In this document: piece by piece, positions 7,489-33,267 of the stretch | Layout of the letters: each line of letters opens with the position of its first letter | How positions within the stretch are numbered: the first letter of the stretch is position 1 | From: Candidatus Woesearchaeota archaeon | GTDB taxonomy: Archaea; Nanobdellota; Nanobdellia; SCGC-AAA011-G17; JACQNH01 | DNA: 35,191 nucleotides | Assembly (NCBI GenBank): GCA_023246445.1 | Contig: JAHFIJ010000008.1 | Coordinates: 1-35,191 of the forward strand | Direction of reading: 5' to 3' | Notes under the pieces: generated by a model | Databases searched by the model: none | Seen by the model: the letters and a program-made list of their open reading frames with translations, nothing else | What the model was told of the DNA's origin: nothing | Program-made: the position numbers and the translations under genes

Positions 7489-7869
7489 CTAATTTGTGTA
7501 TTCAGATACTGCACAGGATACACCATCTATCCTTTGCATTGCAATATTGTTTTCAGGACAACTTTGTGTTACCCATTCTCCGTTTGAACATGTTACATAT
7601 AATCCCCTTGCCCTGTCAATAACATGCTGATTACCCTCTTCAACATCTAAACATTCATTATTACCTGCACCTACAACTTGTTTAGGCTGACTCTTAGGTT
7701 GACCACTAAATCCCTCTGTAACACTGCTTCTTGAATCACTGGAATAATCTGCTCTTAAAGTAGGAGCCACATCCACCACTGGTCTTCCAGTATAAGTCCC
7801 TACACTAGTAAATAAAAATCCTGCAAATATCACAATTATTGCTATTGTGTATAAATATTTTTCTTCCAC
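7489..7869 (-). CDS. Small membrane-anchored protein with four-Cys ectodomain (paralogue A)
   Basis: N-terminal TM MEEKYLYTIAIIVIFAGFLFTSVGTYTGR. Ectodomain spacing C-x20-C-x9-C-x14-C. Tandem with two paralogues. Confidence 0.85.
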   Translation of the reverse strand: MEEKYLYTIAIIVIFAGFLFTSVGTYTGRPVVDVAPTLRADYSSDSRSSVTEGFSGQPKSQPKQVVGAGNNECLDVEEGNQHVIDRARGLYVTCSNGEWVTQSCPENNIAMQRIDGVSCAVSEYTN

Positions 7870-7994
7870 TTTTTTTCACCTCTTGAGTGTTTATTTAAAC
7901 GTTAATACTATTATTTATCTAGCATATATAAATATTTCTATTGTTAAAAACCACTATTAAGTAAAAAATAAAAAGAGTTTTTCCTAAAGAAAAA

Positions 7995-8312
7995 CTATGC
8001 TAAACACACAACATAATCCCCTCTTTGTAGGGCTTGTTCACCAGGATGACAATATTTTTCTACTCTGCTGCCATCAACACATACTTCATATGCACCATTA
8101 TCTTGGTCTACTACACTTTCCATTCCCTCTTCAGATGGTAAACAACCAGCAGCACTGCTAACATACTGCTCAGCTATCTCTCTATCCTGCCCCTCATCCT
8201 GCTCAATGCTTGATACTCTACCAGTATAAGTCCCTACACTAGTAAATAAAAATCCTGCAAATATCACAATTATTGCTATTGTATATAAATATTTTTCTTC
8301 CACTTTTTTCAC
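7995..8312 (-). CDS. Small membrane-anchored protein with four-Cys ectodomain (paralogue B)
   Basis: Same TM segment as paralogue A. Ectodomain C-x20-C-x9-C-x14-C. Confidence 0.85.
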   Translation of the reverse strand: MKKVEEKYLYTIAIIVIFAGFLFTSVGTYTGRVSSIEQDEGQDREIAEQYVSSAAGCLPSEEGMESVVDQDNGAYEVCVDGSRVEKYCHPGEQALQRGDYVVCLA

Positions 8313-8323
8313 CTCTTTGTTAA

Positions 8324-8617
8324 TTATGCCCTCACATTTACATTACTTTGAACACATTGGACAACACTCCCACTCCCTAAAAATGCTCTTTCACCTGCAT
8401 CACATTGATATGATTCCCATCTATAATCCTCACATACTGCATAAGTTCCTGCATCTATGTTGTCATCATAATTATTTATCACTGCTTCCTGCCCATTTTG
8501 AGTGCAGTCAATTCCAACTACATTACCACTTAAATTACCGCCACTTGTAAATAAAAAAGATAAAGCTACTACCACCACAAATAAAGCTAATAAATATTTT
8601 TCTTCCACTTTTTTCAC
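8324..8617 (-). CDS. Small membrane-anchored protein with four-Cys ectodomain (paralogue C)
   Basis: Related TM segment MEEKYLLALFVVVVALSFLFTSGGNLSGN. Ectodomain C-x23-C-x9-C-x15-C. Confidence 0.83.
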   Translation of the reverse strand: MKKVEEKYLLALFVVVVALSFLFTSGGNLSGNVVGIDCTQNGQEAVINNYDDNIDAGTYAVCEDYRWESYQCDAGERAFLGSGSVVQCVQSNVNVRA

Positions 8618-21698: not shown

Positions 21699-24083
21699 CT
21701 ATTCTGAATGCATTCTAGCCGCATCCAGCATTAATTTTCTCTCAGCTCTGGATACTATTAATCTTATCTTCTGAACAGCATCTATATTAGCAGAAATAGA
21801 ATCTATCCCTGTTTTAACCAGAAATTCAGCCATTAAAGGATTAGACCCTGCCTGCCCACAGATAGAAGTCTCAACATTATATTTCTTGCAAACCTTAATA
21901 ACATAACTAATGCATCTTAAAACAGCTGGATTTAATTCATTATATAAATTCTGCAGATTCTCATTATTCCTGTCAACAGCCAATACAGTTTGGGTTAAAT
22001 CATTGGTGCCAAAAGAAATAAAAGATATCCCCTCCTTGCAAATATCCTCAATCATCCAGACAGCAGCAGGAGTTTCAACCATGACACCCAATGGAACCTT
22101 TGAAGCATTTATCTCATTTAAAATTTCTTTAGTTTTTCTAATTTCTTCAGGCGAAATAACAAATGGCAGCATTACAGATATATTAGTTAAACCCTCGTCA
22201 TATAACTCTTTTATAGCCTTTAATTCAGCCTTTAAAATCCCTATATCTTTTAATGATCTCCTTATTCCATGAAAACCCAGCATAGGATTAAATTCTTTAG
22301 GCTCTTCCTCACCACCATCTAGATCTCTGTATTCATCGGTTCTTATATCTGAAGTTCTAACCCAAACAGGTCTAGGATTAAATCTTTTAGCTATATCCCT
22401 TATACCTTGTTTAATTAAAACAGTATATTCTTCATCTCTATTTTCCTTAATATATTTAATAGGATGCGTTCTTCCCTCAGCTATTATAAACTCTAATCTT
22501 AATAAGCCTACACCATCAGGATTTTGTTTTAAAGCATTTTCTACACTTTCAGGCATATCACAATTAACCTTGATCTTAGTTATAGTCTCTAATTGTGGTA
22601 AAGGTTCATAATTTTCTTCTATAATCTTTTCTTTTATTTCCTGTTCACCTTCATAAACTAAGCCTTTAACTCCGTCTACAGTAATTAATTGATTTTCTTG
22701 TAATATTTTAGTTGCAGTTTGAGTTCCAATTACGCAGGCAATTCCCAATTCTCTTGATACAATTGCAGCATGGGAAGTAATCCCCCCTTCATCAGTAACA
22801 ATTGCAGAAGCTCTTCTCATCGCAGGAACAAAGTCTGGATTTGTCATTTTCGTTACTAAAACATCACCCTTCAGAACCTTATCCAAATCATTCACATCTT
22901 CAACGATCTTCACTTTACCAGAACCAACATGTGGAGAAGCAGCTAAACCTTTTAATAAAATTTTTTTATCTGAAATATTTCCCTCTTTATCCTGTATTTG
23001 TTTCAAAGTTGTAATAGCTCTTGTCTGCACAATGTAAATCTTGGAATTCTCAGTCGCAAATTCTATATCCTGCGGATTTCCATAATGCTCTTCTAATCTT
23101 TTTCCAATCTCAGCTAATTTAATAATATCATAATCACTTAATTTCTGTTTTTTAGCCTCATCTTCAGTTAAATTTTTCTTGGCATTTTGATTAGTATTCA
23201 AGTCTAATATTAATTTAAATTCCTGCTGATTTATGGTTTTATTTTTAATTGTTAAACTCTCTTTATCAATAATATACATATCAGGAGTTACTTCCCCGGA
23301 TACTACAGTTTCTCCCAGCCCAAAAGCAGCTTCAATTACAATTTCCTCTTTATTATTAGTTGATGGATTAGCAGTAAACATTACTCCTGAAGCAACAGAC
23401 TGAATTTGTTTCTGGACTATAACTGCAATAAAAACTTTTTCATGTGGGAAATTATTTTTAACTCTATAATAAGTAGCTCTCGCAGTAAACAAGGAAGCCC
23501 AGCATTCTTTAACCGCTTTTAATAAATTTTTATTTCCTTTAACATTTAAATATGTAGCCTGTTCCCCTGCAAATGACGCTGTCGGTAGATCTTCTGCCGT
23601 AGCACTAGATCTTACAGCTACATAAGGAGCATCTCTTCCGGTCTTTATAATATCCAATGCGCCCTTTGAGATATTCCAAATATCAGAATTAACATTCATA
23701 GCATCATAAGACTCTAAAATCTCTATTTTCAGATTTTCAGGCATTTCAGAATTCAAAATTAAATTTCTGCAGTTCTCCGCTTTTTTCTGCAGTTCCTGAT
23801 TATTCTCCACATCTAGATTATTCAATTCTTCATATATCTTTTCTTTAATATTATTAGCCTCTAAAAACTCTCTATAAACCCTGGTTGTTATAGCAAACGC
23901 AGGGGGTATAGGCAGGTCTAAAGAATACATTTCCCCTAAGTTAGCGCCCTTGCCACCCACTTCAGGAATGTTTTCCTTCTTAATGTCCCTCAGCCAAAGA
24001 ATATTATCTATTTTGATCACCTCTTTAAAAGAAAAAACTAAAATTGTATATAAATCTTTTGGAATCCTTTTGATTGAAGTCAA
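21699..24083 (-). CDS. ppsA: Phosphoenolpyruvate synthase; true start probably ~24018 (VIKIDNILWLRD...)
   Basis: VGGKGANLGEMYSLDLPIPPAFAITT, SSATAEDLPTASFAGEQ, swivelling-domain GGITSHAAIVSRELGIACVIGT, and C-terminal SICGQAGSNPLMAEFLV. Confidence 0.95.
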   Translation of the reverse strand: MTSIKRIPKDLYTILVFSFKEVIKIDNILWLRDIKKENIPEVGGKGANLGEMYSLDLPIPPAFAITTRVYREFLEANNIKEKIYEELNNLDVENNQELQKKAENCRNLILNSEMPENLKIEILESYDAMNVNSDIWNISKGALDIIKTGRDAPYVAVRSSATAEDLPTASFAGEQATYLNVKGNKNLLKAVKECWASLFTARATYYRVKNNFPHEKVFIAVIVQKQIQSVASGVMFTANPSTNNKEEIVIEAAFGLGETVVSGEVTPDMYIIDKESLTIKNKTINQQEFKLILDLNTNQNAKKNLTEDEAKKQKLSDYDIIKLAEIGKRLEEHYGNPQDIEFATENSKIYIVQTRAITTLKQIQDKEGNISDKKILLKGLAASPHVGSGKVKIVEDVNDLDKVLKGDVLVTKMTNPDFVPAMRRASAIVTDEGGITSHAAIVSRELGIACVIGTQTATKILQENQLITVDGVKGLVYEGEQEIKEKIIEENYEPLPQLETITKIKVNCDMPESVENALKQNPDGVGLLRLEFIIAEGRTHPIKYIKENRDEEYTVLIKQGIRDIAKRFNPRPVWVRTSDIRTDEYRDLDGGEEEPKEFNPMLGFHGIRRSLKDIGILKAELKAIKELYDEGLTNISVMLPFVISPEEIRKTKEILNEINASKVPLGVMVETPAAVWMIEDICKEGISFISFGTNDLTQTVLAVDRNNENLQNLYNELNPAVLRCISYVIKVCKKYNVETSICGQAGSNPLMAEFLVKTGIDSISANIDAVQKIRLIVSRAERKLMLDAARMHSE

Positions 24084-25237
24084 TTAATTACCAATGAATT
24101 GGTAATCTTGTAGTTACCCTGTGGCACTACTATTGGTTGATTGACTTGCAACCTACTAATTTCAGATTTACCGAGATTAGCGATGTTTCTTGAAGCATTT
24201 AAATCTGAATGTAATTCAAATCCACAATTTACACATTTAAAAATACTTCCTTTTCTATTTGCTTTTTCTATATGATTACATTTAGAACACATTTGACTTG
24301 TATGTTTAGGATTTACTTTTACAAGTATTTTTCCCAATGCTTCTAATTTGTAATCTAAGAATGTTTCAAATTGTTTATAGCTCCAACCACCTAATTTTTT
24401 ATTAAATCTTTTTCCATTCTTCTTTTTAGTCTTAATGTTTAATGCTTCAATTGAAAATACTTTAAAATCACTATTAGCAATTGCTTTGCTTAAACAATGA
24501 TTCGTATCAGAAACAAACCGTGTTTCTTTTCTGCTTATTTTTTGAAGTTTTCTAATAGCAGACTTAGTGCCTTTATTCTGCAATACTTTTTTTAAGTATT
24601 GATATTTTCCTTTCACATCTTTAAGATGATTTGAATGAAAGAATTGATTATTGGACATAACAACAATATTATTAATACCTCTGTCTATTCCAATTATATC
24701 CTCAACTTTTATACCCCCGAGATTTATTTTTGGTGGATTATCCTTTTCTAAAACAACATTAAGATATAACTGATTATTTCTAAAACAAAGTGTTCCTGCA
24801 ATAGCAGAGCAGTCTTTATATCTTATTGTCATAGGATTATCTATGAATGTTAATTTCTTTCTTCCTACAATAGAAGATATTGAAATTTTGTTATGTAGCA
24901 TATCAACTCTTAAATTTCTTTTGTCTAATCTCATTGAAGAATATTCTTTGCCATTGATTTTCTTTTTAAGTTTAGTTCTCTTTAAAATTTCAGAAGCAAC
25001 ATCTCTTGCAGTCTGTAATATTCCAGTAGGCATATTAGGATATTGTTTTTTTAACTTTTTATAAGTCCATTTGTGCAACTTATTTTTGTTGAAAGAGCTT
25101 TTCTTTAATCCCAAATCACATATCTGCTGTTTTATTTTAGAATATTCTTTGATAGTATTAACTAAATCATTATTATTCTCTAACTTGATTTTTACTGTTC
25201 TATTCATAATTATGCTAATATGGATAAGTTTATACAC
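24080..25237 (-). CDS. tnpB: IS200/IS605-family TnpB (RuvC-like RNA-guided nuclease)
   Basis: GIDRGINNIVV, FSIEALNIK, CSKCNHIEKANRKGSIFKCVNCGFELHSDLNASRNIANLG. The RuvC D/E/D residues and zinc ribbon appear intact. Confidence 0.93.
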   Translation of the reverse strand: MYKLIHISIIMNRTVKIKLENNNDLVNTIKEYSKIKQQICDLGLKKSSFNKNKLHKWTYKKLKKQYPNMPTGILQTARDVASEILKRTKLKKKINGKEYSSMRLDKRNLRVDMLHNKISISSIVGRKKLTFIDNPMTIRYKDCSAIAGTLCFRNNQLYLNVVLEKDNPPKINLGGIKVEDIIGIDRGINNIVVMSNNQFFHSNHLKDVKGKYQYLKKVLQNKGTKSAIRKLQKISRKETRFVSDTNHCLSKAIANSDFKVFSIEALNIKTKKKNGKRFNKKLGGWSYKQFETFLDYKLEALGKILVKVNPKHTSQMCSKCNHIEKANRKGSIFKCVNCGFELHSDLNASRNIANLGKSEISRLQVNQPIVVPQGNYKITNSLVIN

Positions 25238-25321
25238 TTATCTATTGTTAAGGCTATATGGTAGAACAATTTATTATTAAAGCTAATTTAAGTTATATTG
25301 ACAAGGGGGGTGAAAATTCAT

Positions 25322-25636
25322 CTAACCAATGAATTGGTTATTTTTCTTTTCACATGAAATATATAATTTTCTGGTTACATAGCCTTTCAGCATTTTCGCT
25401 ACTTGTGGCCTTGAATAATTTCCTATATCTATTTTCATATGCACATGATTTGAATCAAAGCCCTTACCACCTATAGGGATTTCATATTTTCCAGAAGCTT
25501 AGTCAAATAATCTGCTACATTCTTCCCTTACTTCCTTGATATCAAAGATATTACGGCAGTATTTTACCTTAAACATTGCTTGCAACCACACTTCGCCAAC
25601 TGCAGAGCTGTATCTAACTGGATTTTCTTTTCTCAT
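25322..25636 (-). pseudogene. tnpA: IS200-type TnpA (Y1/HUH transposase) remnant with in-frame stop and shortened C-terminus
   Basis: Hand translation: MRKENPVRYSSAVGEVWLQAMFKVKYCRNIFDIKEVREECSRLFD*ASGKYEIPIGGKGFDSNHVHMKIDIGNYSRPQVAKMLKGYVTRKLYISCEKKNNQFIG*. HUH motif is HVH; the TAA stop lies at 25499-25501. Confidence 0.8.
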
Positions 25637-26344: not shown

Positions 26345-26533
26345 CGCCGAGGGCAGGACTTTCAACGTTCTTTCTTTTTACGATGTTTTTCTTTCCTAAA
26401 GAAAAAACTCTTTTGAACCTGCACGTCCTTTCGGACACAAGCTACCGGGTATTTCCCTTAATTCCTTTTCTTAAGTGTTTTTCCAAGAAAAGCTATTCCA
26501 GGCTTGCGCTATACCAGGTTAAGCGACCTCGGC
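26345..26533 (-). tRNA. tRNA-Ser(GGA) with two predicted introns (26359..26411 in T-loop; 26444..26495 in anticodon loop)
   Basis: Acceptor GCCGAGG/CCTCGGC, anticodon arm CAAGC-CTGGAA|intron|A-GCTTG, variable arm GTCC-GAAA-GGAC, T-arm GCAGG-TTCAAA|intron|T-CCTGC, discriminator G. Mature length is 84 nt. Confidence 0.94.
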
Positions 26534-28174: not shown

Positions 28175-28313
28175 TGCGGGTGTAAGGACTTTCAGTTGTT
28201 TTCTTTCAATCTTTTTTTACGAGGTTTTTTTAAAGAAAACTCTTTTGAACCTTAGTAGGCACTAAGCCACTAGCACCTCAAGCTAGTTCATTTGGCCGCT
28301 CTGACACACCCGC
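28175..28313 (-). tRNA. tRNA-Leu(GAG) with predicted T-loop intron (28189..28243)
   Basis: Acceptor GCGGGTG/CACCCGC, anticodon arm CTAGC-TTGAGGT-GCTAG, variable arm GGC-TTAGT-GCC, T-arm TAAGG-TTCAAA|55-nt intron|T-CCTTA, discriminator A. Mature length is 84 nt. Confidence 0.95.
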
Positions 28314-33133: not shown

Positions 33134-33267
33134 GGGCTCGTAGCTCAGCCTGGAACCATTTCAGGTGGGAAATAGAGCACTGCTCTTGCAAAGCGGGGGC
33201 CTCGGGTTCGAAAGAAACTTTTCTTAAATTTTTCAAGAAAAGAAACCGAATAATCCCGACGAGTCCA
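33134..33267 (+). tRNA. tRNA-Ala(TGC) with two predicted introns (33155..33171 in D-loop; 33213..33253 in T-loop)
   Basis: Acceptor GGGCTCG/CGAGTCC, anticodon arm CTGCT-CTTGCAA-AGCGG, T-arm TCGGG-TTCGAA|41-nt intron|T-CCCGA, D-arm GCTC-AGCCTGGA|17 nt|ATA-GAGC. Located in the 16S-23S spacer. Mature length is 76 nt. Confidence 0.93.

Follow-up and report, generated by a model that had tools for sequence, protein, structure and literature searches.

The locus considered here raises the question of how a tRNA gene of a woesearchaeon came to carry an intron in its T-loop, and from which source. Transposed tRNA introns of recent gain are known from Thermoproteales (Fujishima et al. 2010, as reported in PMC4033280 and PMC4090602), and the mechanism of tRNA intron transposition was termed unknown in a review (PMC4090602). 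The window, i.e., the whole stretch of 35,191 nucleotides which was analysed, is contig C44 of a genome (G000) of 883 kb in 46 contigs, with a completeness of 91%. A genome of the same genus, representing a sister species, was used for comparison (G001, with contig JACQNH010000091.1, Candidatus Woesearchaeota archaeon; 83% complete, 6% contamination). Genome G028 was left out as an independent genome, because one of its tRNAs was identical with one of G001 and cross-contamination is possible.

The tRNA-Leu(GAG) gene with a 55-nt T-loop intron, which had been proposed in an earlier note on this DNA, was confirmed on the minus strand at positions 28313–28175 (discriminator included). It encodes a class II tRNA without an anticodon intron, with the acceptor strands GCGGGTG/CACCCGC, the anticodon GAG and the T-stem TAAGG/CCTTA. 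The intron (28243–28189, minus) is located between T-loop bases 59 and 60, which is a listed non-canonical intron position (PMC4090602), and its excision yields the T-stem with a regular 7-nt loop, TTCAAAT. On the same strand, tRNA-Ser(GGA) (26533–26345, read by eye; T-stem GCAGG/CCTGC) contains two introns, one of 53 nt in the T-loop (26411–26359) at the same 59/60 site as in Leu, and one in the anticodon loop (26444–26495, boundaries by eye, ± 1–2 nt). A further T-loop intron, with an irregular central helix, was present at about 33213–33253 in tRNA-Ala(TGC) of the 16S-23S spacer (33134–33267, plus strand); this gene has an apparent D-loop insertion as well (about 33154–33172). ARAGORN reported no tRNAs in the window, and the Rfam tRNA model also missed Leu(GAG) and Ser(GGA), due to their introns. 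Elsewhere in the window (7489–8617, minus), three successive small ORFs with near-identical starts (VEEKYL...) appear to encode paralogous exported or membrane proteins.

For the recognition of a bulge-helix-bulge (BHB) motif, a central helix of 4 bp with 3-nt bulges on either side at the splice sites was required. The helix is formed by TGAA at the 3' end of the intron and TTCA of the T-loop, and it was perfect in 50 of the 73 distinct T-loop introns scanned, including those of Leu(GAG) and Ser(GGA). T-loop base 57 covaries with its partner in the intron (Fisher p = 3e-7 for the 73 distinct introns; the p value is indicative, since related sequences are not independent). An example is provided by the Ser and Gln introns of G001, two 40-mers which differ at a single base (T in one, C in the other), the partner T-loop base 57 being A or G accordingly. 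The lowest-energy folds of most introns did not contain the BHB central helix. A gene for the splicing endonuclease (EndA) was detected in G000 by a single PF01974 match (E = 4e-30) in an open frame of 241 aa. Because of the BHB motif and the EndA gene, the T-loop introns are putatively removed by splicing. Scans with Rfam gave no match to a catalytic intron family in the window or at the copies outside tRNA genes described below, and neither the introns nor these copies were assigned to any other family.

The Leu intron had been thought to be homologous to the Ser intron, since both share start, end and a core beyond what the BHB requires. For the core this was borne out; the common ends are partly forced, as the terminal TGAAAG consists of the strand pairing with T-loop TTCA plus the bulge letters. 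In pairwise tests the ends dictated by the BHB were trimmed and the scores were compared with those of dinucleotide shuffles (n = 20,000). Leu(GAG) versus Ser(GGA) gave a score of 32 (mean of the shuffles, 19.6), and 124 of the 20,000 shuffles did equally well; thus, the pair by itself is weak to moderate evidence of homology, modestly beyond chance. The comparison became decisive when third introns were included. The score of Leu(GAG) with Arg(CCT) was reached by 28/20,000 shuffles and that with Arg(TCG) by none (0/20,000), while the introns of Ser(GGA) and Arg(CCT) were identical at 52 of 53 positions (z = 19) and those of Arg(TCG) and Ala(GGC) were nearly identical (z = 16). Judged from these alignments, homology of the Leu and Ser introns is established via the intermediate introns, not by the strength of the pair itself.

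An inventory of the tRNA genes of G000 was obtained with the Rfam tRNA model, sequence patterns, a T-arm-plus-intron model and the reading of targeted stretches; it is partial, and anticodons were assigned by eye. The model and pattern searches and the stretches read revealed 15 T-loop introns in class I and class II tRNAs, namely in Leu(GAG), Leu(CAA), Ser(GGA), a second Ser, Arg(CCT), Arg(TCG), Arg(GCG), Ala(GGC), Ala(TGC), Glu(TTC), Ile(GAT), Thr(TGT), Gln(TTG), Lys(TTT) and Val(GAC). At least seven of them belong to one sequence family with a core of the type CMTCGTAAA or CCTTGTAAA, and the introns are flanked throughout by conserved GTTCRAA and TCC. The comparison with orthologous tRNAs, which had been suggested as a check for intron gain, was informative: Arg(GCG) and Glu(TTC) of G001 have exons close to those of G000 and no T-loop intron. 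Ile(GAT) contains a T-loop intron, and Pro(TGG) an anticodon intron, in both genomes, in each case of differing sequence subfamilies. In another genome, G042, an identical 56-nt intron was found in a Glu tRNA and a Ser tRNA. Movement of introns between tRNAs, as in the earlier proposal of "transposition or gene conversion", is therefore supported, since near-identical introns are shared by tRNAs whose bodies are unrelated and whose T-stems differ, and some orthologues of the sister species are empty.

Related introns are not confined to the T-loop. In Thr(TGT) and Pro, the introns of the T-loop and of the anticodon, respectively, have a common body (z = 13), as have the Glu T-loop intron and an intron in the D-region of initiator tRNA-Met (z = 8.7); the anticodon-loop intron of Ser(GGA) in the window resembles the Thr(TGT) T-loop intron, with a score reached by 0/3,000 shuffles. 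One tRNA-Lys of G001 contains the same body twice, the copies being located in the T-loop and close to the D-arm. The gene for tRNA-Pro(TGG) (L031, G000:C26, about 21960–22085) has an apparent acceptor-stem intron near position 3/4 besides the anticodon intron, and initiator tRNA-Met has several introns in the D-region and anticodon (L032, G000:C7; L111, G001:C5); in G001 there is also a T-loop intron, together with another insert on the 5' side.

Between protein-coding genes, copies of the same core were found by reading the stretches which contained interior-only matches to an element model (R1), an occurrence which the earlier note had not foreseen; these copies often adjoin a stop codon or immediately precede a start codon. 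An exact pattern of three short tracts was counted in each genome and compared with control hits, with the results 18 vs 4 in G000, 22 vs 1 in G001, 27 vs 4 in G042 and 18 vs 2 in G109. In G000 there were 12 copies outside tRNA genes at nine loci, partly in tandem (C12, C15, C27), and in G001 up to 11, a number which includes two on C85 taken from the pattern alone. A copy on C14 of G000 matches the Arg(TCG) and Ala(GGC) introns exactly over 35 nt, and a copy on C70 of G001 has 35 nt in common with the Gln intron of that genome. In the window, one copy (10373–10340, minus; match to model R2, E = 1e-13) lies directly upstream of the likely start codon of gltX. Compared with G001, it is an insertion of 36 bp (140 nt instead of 104 nt), with both flanks aligning and an orthologue of 77% protein identity; in this one relative, the gltX locus directly represents an empty site at a place other than a tRNA gene. 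A weak 9-bp repeat, ATGAAAGAG/ATGAGAGAT, is present at the gltX copy; no clear target duplication was found there, and none was evident at tRNA sites. When the context was readable (judged visually and from the output of a simple ORF finder), 16 of 17 copies outside tRNA genes were in the sense of a neighbouring gene. One array, on C27, is antisense. One copy lies within the reading frame of a long ORF, close to its start (L231, G000:C32, minus, about 4404), between KR and a GQASY-like segment; the copy itself contains no stop.

The core of the element can be described as a hairpin, consisting of N3, a Y/C mismatch, UUUCUU, a loop, AAGAAA, C and N3', with a purine tract, GGAAAGAA or GUAAAGAA, on its 3' side. 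Cores of equal length were used to build the model, since MAFFT gapped the ends when loops were unequal. In the resulting alignment, which was produced by the model itself and thus leans towards its own structure, 98.6% of cells were paired, compared with 59–88% in slid control versions, and two-sided changes occurred in 7 of 9 pairs (61 such cells against a shuffle mean of 11.5). Among cores from many genomes, the basal helix varies in a compensatory manner (GC, AU, UA and CG types) and the pyrimidine/purine helix is conserved. The first 33 nt of the Leu(GAG) intron fit the model (R2 match at 28243–28211, E = 0.002). From the reading of several introns, the purine tract 3' of the hairpin could re-pair with the pyrimidine strand and provide an inner BHB helix.

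Strong model matches extended beyond the genus to other families of the order and to at least one other order of the class, with related hairpins in G109 and G294. Pattern counts were clearly above control in G042, G109, G294, G038 and G010; in most other, distant genomes exact-pattern matches were at control level and were not counted. G038, G010 and G027 contain a longer dispersed repeat which ends in a related hairpin, and they have few or no T-loop intron matches; the repeat (L250–L269) terminates in CACACTTTCTTTTTAGGAAAAAGAAATCGTGTCCAAAGAAAAA and was seen at 13 or more places in G038. A pattern match in Maribacter (L037) was rejected as due to chance, as the stretch read had no tRNA features. 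Inverted doublets were present inside introns of three genomes. T-loop introns of 80–90 nt consist of one copy followed by an inverted second copy, similar to REPIN doublets (L117, G001; L156, G042; L129, G109).

Taken together, the T-loop introns of Leu and Ser are probably copies of one short structured element of about 35–60 nt, which has multiplied in this lineage. A copy would insert into a tRNA loop and be kept if its ends form a BHB with the exon; the splicing endonuclease would then remove the insert. In this structure UGAA of the intron end would pair with T-loop UUCA, and the inner helix could be formed by the purine tract with the pyrimidine strand. Copies landing between genes would persist as dispersed repeats. 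The inverted doublets and the tandem arrays favour insertion at the level of DNA, by which the element itself most likely moves. An IS200-type transposase does not explain the spread, since it does not track copy number: only one, which is broken, was found in G000, none in G042 and G109 despite many copies, and an intact one in G001. The window itself contains a degenerate element of the IS200/IS605 type (24080–25594, minus), with a broken TnpA interrupted by an internal stop (25594–25325) and an adjoining TnpB-like ORF (25237–24080); the core was absent from the ends of this element.

A spread at the level of RNA appears possible and distinctly less probable than the above reading. Excised intron RNA would reverse-splice into tRNA loops or other transcripts, be reverse-transcribed and recombine into DNA. 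Such a route would account for copies in tRNAs being at spliceable positions and for nearly all other copies having the same orientation as a neighbouring gene, in several cases right at stop codons; excised BHB introns were described as circularised (PMC11782384). The sense orientation of 16 of the 17 copies thus suggests an RNA role or route, but the bias could also come from selection, and inverted doublets in introns, tandem arrays and the antisense array on C27 would not be expected. An RNA role was also considered in another sense, namely that the copies outside tRNA genes are a regulatory RNA, e.g., a leader or 3'-end hairpin, which the tRNA introns resemble by convergence or constraint. 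Sense bias, locations at stop codons or immediately 5' of start codons, and a covarying hairpin would suit such a function. It is nevertheless very improbable in view of the exact identities over 35 nt between an intergenic copy and a tRNA intron in each of two genomes, the lineage-specific variants common to tRNA and non-tRNA places, and the 36-bp insertion at gltX.

Gene conversion between tRNA genes, which the earlier proposal had named beside transposition, would act by recombination across the conserved T-arm; on its own it is an unlikely explanation, if somewhat less so than the regulatory RNA. The conserved sequences flanking all introns could serve for such exchange, and Arg(TCG) and Ala(GGC) have GGG/CCC stems in common beside their nearly identical introns. 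Yet the T-stems of Ser(GGA) and Arg(CCT) differ 3 nt away from introns with 52 of 53 equal bases, and the same body recurs in the anticodon loop and the D-region as well as outside tRNA genes. As the sole route, gene conversion is ruled out by the copies outside tRNA genes; among the tRNA genes themselves it may still contribute.

The multiplying element, as proposed here, resembles the transposed introns of Thermoproteales in that unrelated tRNAs of a genome carry near-identical introns and that orthologues in a close relative are intronless. It differs in its host, Woesearchaeota (DPANN), and in the occurrence of the core outside tRNA genes, with a covarying hairpin. Bacterial REP/REPIN sequences (PMC3116915, PMC2817692) are likewise short, extragenic and palindromic apart from a mismatch, and they occur singly, as inverted doublets or, in some cases, in tandem; however, the exact-pattern copies outside tRNAs number about a dozen here, as compared with >100, no link to a Y1 (IS200-like) transposase was found, and copies double as tRNA introns. 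Similarities exist also to eukaryotic introners, which are mobile and create spliceosomal introns (PMC11782384): short dispersed copies act as introns at several places, and empty sites are found in and out of host genes (tRNA sites, gltX), in this case from one relative only. In contrast to introners, a BHB and the tRNA endonuclease would take the place of the spliceosome, splicing being predicted here, and no transposase link was found. No description of tRNA intron spread in Woesearchaeota or of extragenic copies of BHB introns was found in the open-access literature, which is weak evidence of novelty. With about even confidence, the element could be considered the first archaeal "introner", i.e., a mobile dispersed hairpin across DPANN orders, which creates tRNA introns at several positions wherever a BHB can form and is thereby the source of intron gain in these lineages.

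The data suggest that a small mobile element, by multiplying, gave rise to these tRNA introns in a tiny uncultured archaeon. For the question of how archaeal tRNA genes gain introns, the introns, the extragenic copies and the empty sites of the sister species supply a concrete source element, and intron gain becomes testable through the comparison of close genomes. Since standard tools overlook many tRNAs in such genomes, the tRNA counts for these DPANN genomes will come out too low.
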